Shown here: positions 2,641-10,124 of the stretch, in pieces | How positions within the stretch are numbered: position 1 is the stretch's first letter | How the letters are laid out: each line of letters begins with the position of its first letter | Source of the DNA: Nocardia speluncae NBRC 108251 | GTDB taxonomy: Bacteria; Actinomycetota; Actinomycetes; Mycobacteriales; Mycobacteriaceae | Reading direction: 5' to 3' | Length of the DNA: 64,000 nt | NCBI RefSeq assembly: GCF_001613245.1 | Contig: NZ_BDBZ01000009.1 | Span: 62,001 to 126,000, forward strand | Notes under the pieces: generated by a model | What the model saw: only the letters and a program-made list of their open reading frames with translations | The model's database searches: none | Told to the model about the DNA's origin: nothing | Program-made: the position numbers and the translations under genes

Positions 2641-3174
2641 TCAAATGGTGGCCTGTTCGAGATTGTCGATGATGCGTGCCATGACATTCATCATCTGTGT
2701 GAACTCCTGATCGCTCACGCCGGCCGAGGAGAGGTCGCGGATCCGGGCCACCGAGTCGGCGGCCGTCATGCGGATGGTCCGTCCGGCCTCGGTGAGGGCA
2801 AAACGTCCCTCCGTATCCTGGCTTACCCAACCGCGCTCGCTCAGCGCGGCGACCACCTCGTGTGGGTCTTCGTTCTCGACCTCCCAGAACGGGCGCAGCG
2901 CGTCGGTCAGTTCTGTAGCGCCGGCCGGGCCGGCGGCGAGTGCGTTGAGGGTTTGCCAATCGCGCCGGGAGAGACCGGCTTCGGAAAGTCTCCGGTCGAA
3001 GGCCAGTTCGATCAGCTGATCGAGACGTTTGACCTGGTGGCCGATGAGCCGGTTTTCGCCGGCCGGTGCCGGTTCTACTGGCGCCGGCTCGGCTGCGGCC
3101 GGCTCACCGCAAGCGGCGGCCAGCGGTATGAGCAGCAAGGTGGCGGCGCCGAGGAGCAGGCTGCGGGCGTTCAT
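2641..3174 (-). CDS. MarR-like winged-helix protein with an N-terminal lipoprotein signal
   Basis: The ATG at 3174 has GGGAG six bases upstream and gives 177 residues. The first 22 residues (MNARSLLLGAATLLLIPLAAAC) end in a textbook lipobox, LAAAC followed by G, then a short Glu/Pro/Ala linker. The rest (about residues 40-170) reads as a MarR-family winged-helix fold: a helix with LIGHQVKRLDQLIE, a helix-turn-helix region around LSRRDWQTLNAL, a wing at GRFALTEAGR, and a C-terminal dimerisation helix. MarR proteins are cytoplasmic DNA-binding repressors, so an export and lipidation signal is out of place. Either the start is wrong and the hydrophobic segment is an anchor, or the winged helix has been put to another use. 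It is divergent from a second MarR gene at 3252. Confidence 0.7.
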   Translation of the reverse strand: MNARSLLLGAATLLLIPLAAACGEPAAAEPAPVEPAPAGENRLIGHQVKRLDQLIELAFDRRLSEAGLSRRDWQTLNALAAGPAGATELTDALRPFWEVENEDPHEVVAALSERGWVSQDTEGRFALTEAGRTIRMTAADSVARIRDLSSAGVSDQEFTQMMNVMARIIDNLEQATI

Positions 3175-3251
3175 CGGTTCTCCCATCACATAGATAACAG
3201 ACAGCAAGTAGTTGTCGGAAGGCATGTACATGTCTGTAATAACATGTTCTG
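3175..3251. promoter_or_regulatory. divergent promoter region with ATGT/ACAT repeats, candidate MarR operator
   Basis: The 77 bp between the two divergent MarR-type genes hold TGTACATGT (3225-3233) and AACATGTT (3241-3248), which are ACATGT half-sites about 16 bp apart around an AT-rich centre. Palindromic sites of this kind in a divergent MarR promoter are typical autoregulatory operators. The sequence shows the repeats; binding is inference. Confidence 0.4.
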
Positions 3252-3665
3252 GTGGACGATGTCGAGTGCGTAGAACGAGCGATGGTTGCGATCCGCCGTC
3301 GGCAGACCCGGCGAGCGCTCGCGAAAGAGGGGGAACCGGCCGGGCAGTCCTTCGATGTGCTGGACGTGATCGAGGCGACGCCGACGCCCACGGTGTCGGT
3401 GGTGGCGGCTGCTCTGGCCGTGGACCAGCCCCGAGCCAGCAAGCTGGTGGCGGCCGCCGTGGCGGAAGATCTGGTCCACCGGGTCGCCGATCAGGCCGAC
3501 GGTAGACGTTCGGTCCTGGTCCTCACCGAGCGCGGACGCGAAATCCTCGAACTGTCCCACGCCCGCCGCCGGGCCGCCTTCGAGGCCGCCATGACGGGGT
3601 GGACCGTGGGGGAGCGCAGCGAATTCGCGCGGCTGCTCGATCGTTTCGTGCGTGCAATGCCGTGA
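3252..3665 (+). CDS. MarR-family transcriptional regulator
   Basis: A 137-residue protein starting at a GTG. It has the MarR layout: an N-terminal helix, a winged helix-turn-helix around VSVVAAALAVDQPRASKLVAAAV (residues about 48-70), the wing DGRRSVLVLTERGRE (about 83-97), and a C-terminal dimerisation helix ending near RFVRAMP. The wing motif DGR-x-SVLVLTxxGR is characteristic of the family. It probably represses itself and the divergent gene by binding the ACATGT repeats between them. A ligand cannot be predicted, and no obvious efflux or enzyme gene follows. Confidence 0.8.
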   Translation: MDDVECVERAMVAIRRRQTRRALAKEGEPAGQSFDVLDVIEATPTPTVSVVAAALAVDQPRASKLVAAAVAEDLVHRVADQADGRRSVLVLTERGREILELSHARRRAAFEAAMTGWTVGERSEFARLLDRFVRAMP

Positions 3666-4174: not shown

Positions 4175-4912
4175 TTGGAGATCAACTCGGTAGAGGGGAC
4201 AACCGATCCCAAACCGTCGCCCTCGCCGGGACCGTCGCCGTCGCCACGCCTTTCGAAGCCCGAGGACTGGCAGGTCGAGCTCGACCCTCCATGCCAGGCA
4301 TCGAAAGCTCTGGCCACCTATGTGGTCAAGGCCCGATCCATTTTCCGAAATGTGGCCGATACTCTGGGCACCCCGGACTATGCGGTCCCCCCACCCATAG
4401 CTCCACTCACGAATCCACCCGTGCCGTCTGCCGACATGACCATCAGTTTGGCCGGACTCGCCGCCGCATCGTATTCGACCGTCCAGAATACCCTGCAGGG
4501 CCATTCGGCGGAGTGGGATGGCGCCGACGGCACCGCCGTCACCATCACGCAAGGAGCCGCCACCGTAGGATCGGCGGCCCTGCGAAGAGTCAAGTACCTA
4601 GTGTGTCGATTACAGGATGTGTTGAACACAACCAACCTCGACCGAACGGTGCCCGCCTCCTACACCGAGCACCCTTCTGCCGGCGATGGTCTTACCTCGT
4701 ATGCCGAATACAGGCTTGTCCTCACCATCGAACAAACGCTCGATCAAACCGTCGATATCGTCAGCAAGACCCAATCGGATCTGGGCCTCACAGAGTTGAT
4801 TCCGTTGATTCCGGACTTTCCGATTGTTCCCGAAGGAATAGTGCCGCCCGGGCCCGTCCCCTTGCCCGAACGGCAGCGGCAGCCACAGGGGCCCACGGTG
4901 CTAGAGGTTTGA
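4175..4912 (+). CDS. hypothetical protein with proline-rich ends
   Basis: A 245-residue open frame with a TTG start at 4175; a slightly later start is possible. The N-terminus has a PSPSPGPSPSP run and the C-terminus is Pro-rich (about residues 205-240). The centre (about 40-200) is an alternating helical region with two cysteines. Protein-like composition and absence of competing frames support coding. I do not recognise a family. There is no signal peptide at this start. The overall pattern of a helical core with Pro-rich tails is seen in some cell-surface or secreted actinobacterial proteins, but this is only a resemblance. Immediately downstream lies transposase debris. Confidence 0.5.
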   Translation: MEINSVEGTTDPKPSPSPGPSPSPRLSKPEDWQVELDPPCQASKALATYVVKARSIFRNVADTLGTPDYAVPPPIAPLTNPPVPSADMTISLAGLAAASYSTVQNTLQGHSAEWDGADGTAVTITQGAATVGSAALRRVKYLVCRLQDVLNTTNLDRTVPASYTEHPSAGDGLTSYAEYRLVLTIEQTLDQTVDIVSKTQSDLGLTELIPLIPDFPIVPEGIVPPGPVPLPERQRQPQGPTVLEV

Positions 4913-4924
4913 CAGGTGGCGCCT

Positions 4925-5395
4925 CGACGGCCGGCCGTGACCGTCACATGCGCGATTGATATTCGTCGTCGGACCACCACAGGAGCGTCCGACGGCATGA
5001 TCAAACGGTTCGCTGGGGCCTGGCCCGGATCCGTTGCCCCCCTGTGTGAACCACGCGGGTTCGCGCACCGGCCGCGTGCTGGTGAACGCGTACGAGCGGG
5101 AATCCACCGCCACCTCCCGATCGGGTTCGTCCATCGCTTCGGCGATCACTGGCACCCGTTGCATGAGCATCACCGAGGTGCCGATGCGTGACCACTGCCA
5201 GAACTTCGTTGTAGACCGTTTTCCAAGGCCCGTATCGTTCGGCAGCTCTCGCCACGCCGCACCGGTCTCGGCCTTGTAGAGCATCACGTTCAGGATCTGC
5301 CGATCCTCCACTCGTGGGCGGCCTTTTGCTCCCGAGGCCGGCAACTACGGCTCGATCGTGCGCCACTGTTTCTCGGTCGACTCATGTCTAAGTGC
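4925..5395 (-). pseudogene. IS5-family transposase, N-terminal remnant, frameshifted
   Basis: Minus-strand translation gives the typical start of an IS5-type (two-frame) transposase spread over two frames. One frame reads EKQWRTIEP, stop, LPASGAKGRPRVEDRQILN and then GAAWRELPNDTG. Another frame continues RYGPWKTVYNEV and later VRVHQHAAGARTR, the usual segment around the first catalytic Asp (DSTVVRAHQHAAGAR in intact relatives). The in-frame stop and frame changes mean it cannot make a working transposase. The C-terminal half is missing here; a matching C-terminal half lies on the opposite strand at 5945-6451. Confidence 0.75.
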
Positions 5396-5635: not shown

Positions 5636-5944
5636 ATTTCGCTCCTGTAGGGGTCGGTTCCGATGAGCTCGACAATGGTCCCCGGGTTTTGGAAGGTACT
5701 CGGAGCCGACTTGGAACGCTGTGGCCGGTGCACAGGACACCCGCCGCCCGACGCGGTTCAGCGTTGCCGCGGGGACGAAACCTGGCTGCCGAGATCATGA
5801 TCGGCGTGTGTTCGGGCGTCGGCGGACCAGTGTGGGGCAGGCCACTGGTCGGCGACGGCGGCGGCCCGGAGGAAGTGGGCGGCGGCCTCGTCGTGCCGGT
5901 CGAGGAAGAGGGCGAGTTCGCCGAGCGTGTGGACGGTGCGTAGT

Positions 5945-6451
5945 CATCAAGGCGGGGAGCAGATCGGCTACGACGCCGGTAAACGGGTGCGGGGCCGTAA
6001 CGGCATCTGCTGGTCGACACCGGTGGGCTGCTGCGTGGGCTGGTGCATTCGGTGTCGGTGCAGGACCGGCCCGGTGCCCGGATGGTGCTGGGCAGTATCC
6101 GGGCACGTTACCCGCTGCTGGGACTGGTGTGGGTCGACGGCAGTTACGTCAACACCGTCGATACCAGCGTGGTCGGGTGGGCTGCGGCGACCGAGGGTAT
6201 CGAGATCGTGGCGGTGCCCCGTCACGCCGATGTGAAAGGCTTTCAGGTGCTGCCCGCAGGTGGGTGGTCGAACGCACGTTTCCTGGTTGACGAGGTGCAG
6301 ACGATTGGCCCGTGACTACGAACGTAAAACCGCCCACGCCGAGGCGATGATCCGGCTCATGGCCGCCCGCCTCGCCGGGGAAGCCGTGGAACCCTCCGGC
6401 CCGATCGAAACCGAGGCCGCCCGCCGGCTAGCAGACGACCTCAGCAACTAA
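5945..6451 (+). pseudogene. IS5-family transposase, C-terminal remnant, frameshifted
   Basis: Plus-strand translation recovers the second half of an IS5-type DDE transposase in several frames: AGKRVRGRN, then LVDTGGLLRGLVHSVSVQDR, then YPLLGLVWVDGSYVNT (second catalytic Asp region), then RRWVVERTF (the Arg-rich motif with the catalytic Glu), then RRLARDYERKTAHAEAMIRL at the end. At least three frame changes are needed, so it is dead. Orientation is opposite to the N-terminal remnant at 4925-5395. Confidence 0.75.
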
Positions 6452-6789
6452 CCGATCAGGTTCCCCAACATTTTCTCAGGCGACGGCTGAGATCACAGCA
6501 GAATGCGGGAACTATGAAATGTGGCAGCTTGGGACCGATGCGTTTTCCGAGCACGACTGAGCAGTTCGACTGACCACAGCAGCGCCAACAGGAAGCACGC
6601 GGCCACAGTAGTAGCGAAATGGCGAAGGCATTGACCCCGGGGTGGAGGCGTTTCGGCGCACAGCGAGAATCGACATCGTCGTGCGGCCGGTCTCCAGAAC
6701 AATCGAAGCCGGTGTCCACCGATCGGTGGACACCGAATTCGACCGGTCGAGGCTGTCCTGGGGAGGAGGTCGGACAGCAGTATTCGAGT
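6452..6789. other. 338 bp leader region of the mmpL operon
   Basis: No gene is evident. The segment holds a long perfect palindrome (6710-6735, annotated separately) and a GGAGGAGGT sequence at 6762-6770. The latter lies about 20 bases before the chosen mmpL start, further away than usual for a ribosome-binding site. Confidence 0.45.
6710..6735. promoter_or_regulatory. 26-bp perfect palindrome, candidate operator of the mmpL operon
   Basis: Half-site CGGTGTCCACCGA followed directly by its exact reverse complement, with no spacer and no mismatch. It ends 54 bp before the mmpL start codon. A perfect 26-bp dyad in a promoter position suggests binding by a dimeric or double-dimeric repressor (TetR-like) or by the response regulator encoded in the same operon. 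The dyad is seen; the function is inferred. Confidence 0.5.
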
Positions 6790-8946
6790 ATGCGAAATCG
6801 CCTGGTGGCCACAGCCGGCTGGAGTGCACGTCGCCCGTGGCTCGCCATAATCGGATGGTTCGTCTTCGTTGCCCTGTGCATCGGGGTGGGAGCGGGGATC
6901 GGCGGGAAACCGGCTGCTACAGAGGATTTCCGGATCGGAGAAGCCGGGCGGGGTGAGGCGATCGCGGCCTCCGGTGGTCTGCAACCGCGAGCGGTGGAGC
7001 GGGTGCTCATCACCGGGGGTGGGGCCCGGCTGGACGGCGTGGCCGATAATGTCGCGCAGGAAGTTGCCGATCGGATGCTGCGGCTGCGGGAGGTCGAATC
7101 CGTGGCAGTACCGGTGTATTCACCCGGCAATACGGCGTTGCGGGTCGATGTGACCTTGATAGGGGCGGAGCTCGACGGGAAAAAGCATGTCGGTGCGCTG
7201 CGGGCGCAGACCGAGGAGGTGCAGCGGGCTCATCCCGAGCTGCTGATCGAGCAGACCGGTGGGCCTTCGATCAGCAGCGGTGTCGACGAGTTGCGCGGGC
7301 GGGACCTGGCCCGCACGGAGTTGATCGCATTACCGGTCACCTTCATCACCCTGATGTTCGTCTTTCGTTCAGTGGCAATGGCGCTGGTACCGGTGCTGCT
7401 GGCGGTGTCGTCGATCATCGCCGCCATCGGGTTGTCGATGCCCGCCTCGCACCTGTTTCCCGATAACGGTGTCGGCACCAACATCATCCTGCTCCTCGGT
7501 CTGGCTGTCGGCGTCGACTACACGCTGTTCTATTTGAAGCGTGCCCGGGAGGAGCGCGCCCGCTCCGGTGGAGTGCTGGGTGCACAGGCGTTGGTGGAAC
7601 TGGCTGCGGCGACCTCGGGCCGGGCTGTGGTTGTGTCCGGGCTTGCCGTCGCGGCCTCCACCGCGACCTTGTACTTCGCCGATGACGTGATCTTCTCCTC
7701 GATCGCCACCGCAGCGATACTGGTGACGCTGGTCGCGGTGATCAGCTCGCTTACCGCGCTACCGGCACTGCTTGCGGTGCTCACCCGTCGGGCCGCACGC
7801 AAGGCCGCGGTTACCGCACCGAACCACCGTGAGCCGTCGAACGGCGGGCGATTCACCAGGTTCCTGCTCGGTAGGATAGCGATGAAACCTGCTGCTGGAC
7901 TGGCGGTAGCGGTGACGGCGATGCTGGCGCTCACCGCGCCGGTGCTAGGTCTGGAACTCACCGATATGGGGCGGGAGACTCATCCGCGCACTATCCCCGC
8001 CATGCAGACCTTCGATCGTCTGAACGCCGCCTTCCCGGAACTGAAAGCGATGCACCGGGTGGTCGTCGCGGCGGAACCGGATCGGGCGAACGAGGTCACG
8101 GCCGCGCTGTATGCCCTGGCGCGACGGGCCGCGGCGGACCCGGCTCTGACGGGGACCTCGGACCTGCGTACCTCGGCCGACGGCCGCGTCGGTCTGCTGG
8201 AACTACCTGCGCCGCATTACGTCAGCGATAAAGCGGCCGTGGAGTCGCTCGAGAGAATCCGAGCGGACTACGTGCCGACCACGATCGGCGCCCTGTCCGA
8301 TATCGACTTCGCGGTGACCGGTGACGTCGCACGCTACGCGGACTACCCGGCACATCAGAAACAGAAGTTGCCCGTGATCATCGCTGCATTGTTGCTCGCG
8401 ACCTTCGTTCTGACGGCCGCGGCATTCCGGTCTCTCGCGCTCGGTGCGATCGGTGTGGTGCTGAACCTGCTCTCTGCGGGTGCATCTCTGGGACTGGTGA
8501 CCCTGGTCTTTCAGCACACCTGGGCCGAGGACCTGCTCGACTTCGACTCGACCGGCACGATCGGTTCCCGGGTGCCATTGCTGCTGCTGGTGATCCTGTT
8601 CGGCTTATCGATGGACTATCAGATCTTCGTGCTGAGCCGGATCGAAGAAGCCGTCGACAAGGGGCTGAATACCAGGCAAGCCGTGCTCGAAGGTGTCGGC
8701 GGTTCGGCCGCGGTGGTGACCGGCGCCGCATTCATCATGGTCACCGTGTTCGCCAGCTTCGTTCCGCTGCACATCATAGAAATGAAGCAGATGGGCTTCG
8801 CGCTCGCTGCCGCCGTACTCCTCGACGCGTTTGTCATCAGGATCGTGATCCTGCCCGCGCTACTGCTCATACTGGGGGAGCGAACCTGGTGGCCGGTCCG
8901 GCCGGTCGGCACCACTGAACGCTTCGTACCGGTGAAAGTAGGTTGA
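6790..8946 (+). CDS. MMPL-family RND transporter
   Basis: The ATG at 6790 (MRNRLVATAGWSARRPWLAIIGW) is chosen because the cytoplasmic-to-first-helix pattern RRPWLAIIGWF is how MmpL proteins begin; the open frame extends upstream but without that pattern. The 718-residue protein has the RND layout: TM1 (about 15-35), a large external loop, five TM helices (about 175-350), a second external loop, and a second set of five to six helices (about 520-700). Asp-Tyr pairs GVDYTLF and SMDYQIF mark TM4 and TM10, the proton-relay helices. MmpL proteins export lipids or hydrophobic compounds, or act in drug efflux. It overlaps or abuts the histidine kinase gene that follows, so the kinase and regulator probably control it. 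Confidence 0.9.
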   Translation: MRNRLVATAGWSARRPWLAIIGWFVFVALCIGVGAGIGGKPAATEDFRIGEAGRGEAIAASGGLQPRAVERVLITGGGARLDGVADNVAQEVADRMLRLREVESVAVPVYSPGNTALRVDVTLIGAELDGKKHVGALRAQTEEVQRAHPELLIEQTGGPSISSGVDELRGRDLARTELIALPVTFITLMFVFRSVAMALVPVLLAVSSIIAAIGLSMPASHLFPDNGVGTNIILLLGLAVGVDYTLFYLKRAREERARSGGVLGAQALVELAAATSGRAVVVSGLAVAASTATLYFADDVIFSSIATAAILVTLVAVISSLTALPALLAVLTRRAARKAAVTAPNHREPSNGGRFTRFLLGRIAMKPAAGLAVAVTAMLALTAPVLGLELTDMGRETHPRTIPAMQTFDRLNAAFPELKAMHRVVVAAEPDRANEVTAALYALARRAAADPALTGTSDLRTSADGRVGLLELPAPHYVSDKAAVESLERIRADYVPTTIGALSDIDFAVTGDVARYADYPAHQKQKLPVIIAALLLATFVLTAAAFRSLALGAIGVVLNLLSAGASLGLVTLVFQHTWAEDLLDFDSTGTIGSRVPLLLLVILFGLSMDYQIFVLSRIEEAVDKGLNTRQAVLEGVGGSAAVVTGAAFIMVTVFASFVPLHIIEMKQMGFALAAAVLLDAFVIRIVILPALLLILGERTWWPVRPVGTTERFVPVKVG

Positions 8947-8951
8947 TCGAA

Positions 8952-10124
8952 ATGTACGAGCAGCCGCGTACCGACGATCGATTCCGGGTGCGGATATTGC
9001 GGCGGTGGTACCACGGCTGTTGGGTCCTGTTCGGTCTGTGCCCGCCGGTGATCGCTGTGCACGACAGGATCGATGCCACGAAGTACGGGACGTGGGCGCT
9101 GGTGGCAGTACTCGCCGTGACCTACTTCGTCCTGAGGTGTTTTCCCGGCAATCCCCTGGTGCGGCCGAGCGGTTTCCTCTGGGTGCTCGTGCTGGTACTC
9201 GGCGGGACCGCGATCCTGCTCGACGGTGGCGCGGCGTTCTTCATCGTGTCGCTGCCCATGTTCTGGATTTATACCGCCACCCAGCGCCAGGCGATCGGCT
9301 TCATCGGTGCGGCCGCGGCCGCTACATTGATCGGTACTTTCACCGGGACGCCGTTTTCCCCGGGGAACGTGGTTTTTACCCTGATCGGCCTCGCCGGCGG
9401 TGTCTTGCTGGGGCTGTGGATGGACCGGGTGCTCGAACAGGGGGAAGAACGTGCCCGGATGCTCGGCGCCGAACTGGAACGCACACAATCGGAACTGGTC
9501 GCGGCGCACCAGCGGCAGGGCGCGGCCGAGGAACGTGAACGGCTCGCCCGCGAGATCCACGACACGCTGGCCCAGGGCTTTGCCTCCATCGTTGTGCTGG
9601 CCGAGGCGGCGCGCGCAGGCCTCGAAACCGATCCGGTGGCAAGCGCCGGACAACTCTTGTCCATCGAACGCACCGCCCGCGAAAACTTGACGGAAGCACG
9701 TGTCCTCGTCGGGCCGGCGCCGACGGGCGGTGTTGTGTCCGGCGGTATCGCACCGGCGCTTCGGCGCATTCTCGACAGGTTCGTCGAGGACACCGGGCTG
9801 GTCGTGGACGCGGAGCTGCACGATATCGGCTGTGATCAGCGCACCAGGATCGCACTGGTGCGCTGCGCCCAGGAATCGCTGGCCAATATCCGCAAGCACG
9901 CTGGGGCGAGCACGGTGAGCATCGTTCTGGCAGAAGGTACCTCCGGACCGGAACTCGAAATCACCGATGATGGAACAGGGTTCAGTCCCACTGCGGCCCG
10001 GGGGTTCGGCCTGAACGGTATGCGCGCCCGGCTCGCCGAACTCGGCGGTGAGCTCACCGTTACCAGTTCGCCCGGTGAAGGTACCCGCATCTTCGCCGTA
10101 CTACCCGCCGACGATCGGACGTGA
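8952..10124 (+). CDS. sensor histidine kinase, NarL-partner (HisKA_3) type
   Basis: ATG at 8952, six bases after the mmpL stop; a TTG at 8943 is an alternative. The 390-residue protein has four to six N-terminal membrane helices (about residues 15-165), a coiled-coil segment (EQGEERARMLGAELERTQSELVAA), and the dimerisation/phosphoacceptor helix EERERLAREIHDTLAQGF with the phosphorylated His (about residue 200). A C-terminal HATPase domain has EITDDGTGF as the G1 box and RGFGLNGMRARL as the G2 region. Short sensing loops suggest it detects a membrane or envelope signal. It pairs with the response regulator one base downstream. Confidence 0.9.
   Translation: MYEQPRTDDRFRVRILRRWYHGCWVLFGLCPPVIAVHDRIDATKYGTWALVAVLAVTYFVLRCFPGNPLVRPSGFLWVLVLVLGGTAILLDGGAAFFIVSLPMFWIYTATQRQAIGFIGAAAAATLIGTFTGTPFSPGNVVFTLIGLAGGVLLGLWMDRVLEQGEERARMLGAELERTQSELVAAHQRQGAAEERERLAREIHDTLAQGFASIVVLAEAARAGLETDPVASAGQLLSIERTARENLTEARVLVGPAPTGGVVSGGIAPALRRILDRFVEDTGLVVDAELHDIGCDQRTRIALVRCAQESLANIRKHAGASTVSIVLAEGTSGPELEITDDGTGFSPTAARGFGLNGMRARLAELGGELTVTSSPGEGTRIFAVLPADDRT

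Follow-up and report, generated by a model that had tools for sequence, protein, structure and literature searches.

What does a domain of the MarR type do on a protein that carries an export signal? Few bacterial regulators are as common as MarR proteins, which are regarded as cytoplasmic DNA binders. In a 64,000-nucleotide stretch of the genome of Nocardia speluncae NBRC 108251 (the window), one gene, here called gene X, combines such a domain with a predicted lipoprotein signal peptide and lies divergent to a conventional MarR gene (Table 1). The reading that we prefer, at a confidence somewhat short of even, is that of an exported, non-DNA-binding MarR-fold lipoprotein, likely a binder of small molecules, which would be induced through its MarR neighbour.

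Table 1. Positions of gene X, the divergent MarR gene and their features in the window.
Feature	Position	Strand	Basis
Gene X, predicted lipidated MarR-fold protein, 177 aa	2641..3174	-	ORF call, orthologue comparison
Predicted lipoprotein signal peptide, residues 1-21	3112..3174	-	Sequence pattern and orthologue alignments
Lipobox Cys22, predicted lipidation site	3109..3111	-	Cys here in 19/19 signal-bearing homologues
Pro/Ala-rich linker, residues 23-43 (21 residues)	3046..3108	-	
MarR-fold domain, residues 44-177	2644..3045	-	AlphaFold2, Foldseek, VIA-align
Ribosome-binding site GGGAG of gene X	3180..3184	-	By eye
Divergent canonical MarR regulator; recognition helix DQPRASKLV, full wing DQADGRRS	3252..3665	+	
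Operator-like palindrome 1, ACAWNTANWTGT type	3222..3233	.	
Operator-like palindrome 2, 18 bp from the first	3204..3215	.	

Export signal and its homologues

The original prediction for this locus had described an LAAAC lipobox with a good hydrophobic core and a well-placed ribosome site, and all three are borne out. Gene X begins with an ATG at 3174, with GGGAG 5 bases upstream, and its signal sequence, MNARSLLLGAATLLLIPLAAAC, has Arg4 in the n-region and a lipobox, L-A-A-A-C, that ends at Cys22. The best 12-residue Kyte-Doolittle mean of the core is 2.42 (range in 19 homologues, 2.09-3.43), and the residue at -3 is Ala, not Leu. The strict Gram-positive lipoprotein pattern (G+LPPv2) fits 3 of the 340 stop-to-stop ORFs of at least 100 codons in the window, gene X being one. 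A second is a lipoprotein gene (1789-2442, + strand; DUF6636) with the signal MRRVFVVAALVAAAVGLTAC, which is convergent with gene X. After the ATG, the next in-frame starts come at codon 13 (TTG, within the signal) and codon 107 (GTG, within the domain), so that an intact domain without the leader cannot be made.

Close homologues were defined by a match at E 1e-35 to a profile of 17 lipidated sequences, and were found in 29 of the 150 Nocardia genomes searched; an initial search at E 1e-3 had returned relatives in 108 of 148 Nocardia genomes, mostly distant ones. According to the 5' ends, 19 of the 29 carry a signal with a lipobox Cys and the remaining 10 are leaderless, starting directly with M-x-E-R-R-L-I-G-Y or similar. 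The original prediction would have been refuted had every orthologue begun past the hydrophobic segment; this is not so for 19 of the 29. Ala21-Cys22 is unchanged across the 17 aligned lipidated sequences, which together with the frequency of the signal among the close homologues argues that the signal in the window is more than chance. The strict pattern fits 12 of the 19 lipidated forms (the window's included) and none of the 10 leaderless ones; the other seven signals fall outside it, by our own reading, solely through a Pro at -4. A start-site error was considered for gene X and was ruled out by the start-codon scan and by the conservation of the signal across 19 species. On this sequence evidence gene X is very probably exported as a lipoprotein.

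The linker between lipobox and domain is 20-152 residues long in the 12 of the 19 homologues measured, and is rich in Ser, Gly, Pro, Ala and Asp. Four copies (L018, L020, L021 and L032) have Ser/Gly/Asp/Pro-rich stalks of 64-152 residues from lipobox to domain; L032 (G013:C128) is a frame-broken copy of the lipidated gene. Several lipidated homologues have an internal start near the domain (e.g. at RMIGY) and may produce a second, cytoplasmic form. In the start-codon scan, the window gene, L005 and L008 offered no usable start of this kind.

For the domain, dN/dS lies at 0.18-0.32 in 10 lipidated pairs versus 0.24-0.46 in 3 leaderless pairs, and the lipidated domains are under purifying selection. 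The values for the signal range from 0 to 2.02, the signal being too short for a firm estimate. The motifs RRxWQ and ALRPFW are conserved in lipidated and leaderless forms alike. Avoidance of Cys was considered as proof of export and discarded: none of 18 lipidated domains contains Cys, against 6 of 10 leaderless domains, but distant leaderless domains, too, rarely contain it (2 of 20). One of those six (L027, located by eye) sits within a C-terminal extension.

The close homologues without a leader group in a single clade (100/99). In the best tree from concatenated X domain and MarR sequences, this clade is nested within the lipidated group (starred branches). The topology points to a gain of export at the base and a later loss in the leaderless clade, though a single lipidated clade is not rejected, p-AU being 0.14 for the concatenated data, 0.33 for MarR alone and 0.43 for X alone. 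L046 (no motif) and the frame-broken L032 were left out of one tree, and L032, L008, L025 and the distant L038 and L046-L053 out of a second set of trees.

Beyond the close group, a class-wide search at E 1e-10 returned relatives in 65 of 296 genomes (two Nocardia) and 19 of 114 genera, and in the 18 best non-Nocardia loci none of the 5' ends showed a lipoprotein signal. A family search of 251 genomes at E 1e-15 matched 13, all Nocardia (1 of 31 genera), and a plasmid search gave 7 weak matches, in Streptomyces and Embleya, covering at most residues 42-174. Leaderless relatives of the GYWLKHLDRLIE type (L085-L102) make up a widespread actinobacterial family; beside 17 of these 18 loci no MarR relative was found.

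Domain fold and DNA-reading parts

The AlphaFold2 model of X, built from 28 sequences, has a mean pLDDT of 83, with values above 90 across most of the domain. It places helices at residues 44-65, 70-80, 86-92, 94-100, 104-113, 129-149 and 155-176, and two short strands at 117-119 and 125-127. When the model was submitted to Foldseek, nearly all of the best 50 matches were annotated as MarR-type (best E 7.2e-7, ST1710), and VIA-align superimposed it on YusO (1s3j) with Z 14.1 and rmsd 3.4 over 131 residues. As modelled, then, the X domain has the MarR fold including the helical dimer domain. The original prediction had placed a MarR-like winged helix after the linker, and the predicted structure does contain that fold; at the level of sequence profiles the claim fares less well, since the window protein falls short of the Pfam cut-offs for MarR and winged-helix families (PF13463, 18.3 vs 22.2; PF12802, 13.3 vs 27). 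It likewise stays below the cut-off of the SlyA model (16.2 vs 120).

The differences from MarR regulators lie in the parts that read DNA, and the model of X lacks the intact helix-turn-helix and full beta wing of these regulators. Helix 94-100 is an addition between the two helices of the helix-turn-helix, whose spacing is 11 residues in the X model versus 3 in that of the neighbour MarR. The wing strands have 3+3 residues, compared with 6+9 in the model of the neighbour (75-80 and 83-91). In three of the four PDB MarR alignments shown, the wing of X is short of 6 consecutive residues; in the remaining one it lacks two separate stretches of 3. Wing length was compared over the intact lipidated and the leaderless rows, with L032 and the distant L036, L037, L040, L042, L044 and L053 excluded. 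It discriminates where the D-x-R motif, tried as a wing marker, does not, the motif being found in 11 of the 19 lipidated X proteins and also in 2 of the 10 without a leader.

Charge points the same way. The mean net charge of the domain is -5.9 in lipidated, -5.1 in leaderless and -6.6 in distant forms, versus +0.4 and +0.2 in neighbouring MarRs. Lipidated and leaderless proteins have an acidic or neutral predicted recognition helix, with mean charges of -1.95 and -1.40 respectively; in the neighbouring MarRs the helix carries 0 to +1. Judged from these models, X is probably not a DNA binder. A role for X as regulator of the shared promoter was also considered, and is unlikely given the changes in helix-turn-helix and wing. 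The leaderless relatives have the altered features too, so alteration of the DNA-reading part probably preceded the signal.

Compared with known MarR/SlyA repressors (E. coli MarR, 1jgs/3voe; SlyA, 3q5f; ST1710, 3gfi; HcaR, 3k0l), X shares the overall fold and the helical dimer domain. It differs from them by its lipoprotein signal, the extra helix in the helix-turn-helix, the acidic recognition helix, a wing shorter by about 6 residues, and scores below the MarR Pfam cut-offs. The SCO6745 family/HTH_67 gives weak matches in some of 28 relatives (5 for PF21863, 4 for NF047719), and the window protein has no match to either at E 0.01. Regulators of the CadC/ToxR type carry a cytoplasmic winged helix ahead of a membrane segment, and like X they present a winged helix on a membrane-linked protein. 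In X, by contrast, the winged helix is C-terminal to an N-terminal lipoprotein signal, an arrangement that sets it apart from tethered regulators. A literature search, with most subscription papers outside its reach, found no earlier description of a lipidated MarR-fold protein. Neither a MarR fold nor a lipoprotein signal is unusual in itself; what is new, as far as that search goes, is that the two are joined, and conserved together, on a domain whose DNA-reading parts are altered.

The divergent MarR gene and its operator

A conventional MarR gene reading the other way had been predicted next to gene X, and this holds. Its product scores 37.3 bits with PF12802 (cut-off 27), and the model of the protein (mean pLDDT 83) has an intact wing. 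The starts of the two genes are 77 bases apart. The arrangement recurs, as a relative of the divergent MarR lies beside X in 28 of the 29 close loci and in 17 of 21 distant Nocardia loci; L025 has none, and in L008 the contig ends after the first 18 residues of the MarR.

Two 12-bp palindromes in an 18-bp register lie between the genes in 26 of the 28 testable close loci, a palindrome being counted if at least 8 of its 10 defined bases match; L009 and L012 have a single one each. Shuffled regions gave 0.06-0.26 single sites per close locus. Within the 7.4-Mb genome of the organism itself, the pair (at most 3 mismatches) occurs at one place, 3204-3233, on both strands, and the reversed-pattern control gave one forward and one reverse match, so that the pair count is near background. 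The operator claim is therefore carried by conservation across loci and not by uniqueness in the genome. No second close relative of the neighbour MarR was found in that genome at E 1e-5. From the conserved arrangement of genes and palindromes, X is likely to be repressed by the neighbour MarR.

The surroundings were compared over 15 fetched loci and the window. The only family present in all 16 is the X-MarR pair itself, with its antisense shadow; other families found in at least 4 loci come from five leaderless loci, plus single members from L107 and L114. Since the pair alone is common to all loci, X seems to be the principal target of its own local repressor. The lipidated loci compared share no gene cluster that might hint at a function: beside the pair they have no transporter or enzyme gene in common, which leaves a ligand role without genomic support, and no gene for a membrane partner. 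Near the module in the window lie two ORF fragments resembling IS5-type transposases by eye (4901-5366, - strand; 5927-6315, + strand). Farther on, an MMPL transporter gene (6619-8946, + strand) overlaps a HisKA_3 histidine kinase gene (8943-10124, + strand) by a few bases.

Possible roles of gene X

In the reading that we prefer, gene X and the divergent MarR would form a two-gene module, in which MarR would bind both palindromes and repress itself as well as X. A small-molecule inducer would release MarR, and X would then be made. X itself would be a MarR paralogue with a dismantled DNA-reading surface that, in this Nocardia lineage, gained a signal for Sec and signal peptidase II and with it export. 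With a lipid anchor and a flexible stalk holding it on the outside of the plasma membrane, X would use its retained dimer fold to bind a small molecule, either sequestering it or keeping it for uptake or efflux.

The ligand-binding part of this proposal is conjecture, put forward a shade more tentatively than the reading as a whole. The structural matches of the X model include 5zc2, the reductase component C1/HpaC of Acinetobacter baumannii 4-HPA 3-hydroxylase, whose C-terminal domain has the MarR fold in common with X; this domain is described as binding a phenolic ligand and not DNA (PMC10816480). It differs from X in being part of an enzyme, X being a stand-alone protein with an export signal. 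Lipidated and leaderless forms alike retain the domain, as would fit a ligand that diffuses; the persistence of the core motifs in both suggests a function independent of DNA, which could act on a diffusible molecule.

X could instead be an extracytoplasmic sensor or receptor lipoprotein that binds an outside signal and relays it to a membrane partner. The stalk and the predicted surface anchoring would suit this, as would the phenolics that MarR folds commonly bind, but the lipidated loci have no membrane-partner gene in common and we regard a sensor as unlikely. Slightly less likely still is a structural or protein-binding envelope lipoprotein, with the winged helix serving as an interaction module without ligand. 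The conserved RRxWQ and ALRPFW motifs could form its binding face; as they are also present in the leaderless cytoplasmic forms, however, the same partner would be needed across the membrane.

An improbable alternative is that X is an anti-repressor coupled to export, a heterodimer partner of MarR whose retained precursor derepresses the module upon failure of Sec or lipoprotein export. It draws on the paralogy of X and MarR, with dimer helices kept and DNA-reading parts changed, and on the steady pairing of the two genes together with the conserved export signal. Against this, X would constantly oppose MarR in the 10 leaderless species, and the profiles of X and the neighbour MarR match weakly (hhalign probability 68.6) and in the C-terminal half only. 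The fuller version, a wing-less paralogue acting as an export-coupled signal that inactivates MarR, its export signal gained once and lost in one clade, is more doubtful again. Least probable, and highly so, is an ordinary cytoplasmic MarR with a miscalled start or a non-functional leader: ten of the close orthologues lack a leader, and internal starts exist in some lipidated ones, but the window gene, L005 and L008 have no usable one, Cys and signal are present in 19 species, and the DNA-reading parts are altered.

Of the three roles that the original prediction had left open, namely sensor, antagonist and reuse of the fold outside the cell, the last is best supported, by the conserved signal, the purifying selection and the altered helix-turn-helix and wing. 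A direct antagonist of the neighbour MarR would fit poorly with export. That prediction did not include the orthologues without a leader, the shortened wing, the pair of operator sites or the likely gain and subsequent loss of export.

If the preferred reading, that of an exported MarR-fold lipoprotein which does not bind DNA, is true, the family would be a natural experiment in the reuse of a fold across the membrane, with an exported clade and a seeming return to the cytoplasm in its sister clade. For annotation pipelines it would mean that a MarR-like match is not always a regulator. The adjacent repressor and its two-site operator would make the inducer, and perhaps the ligand too, directly findable.
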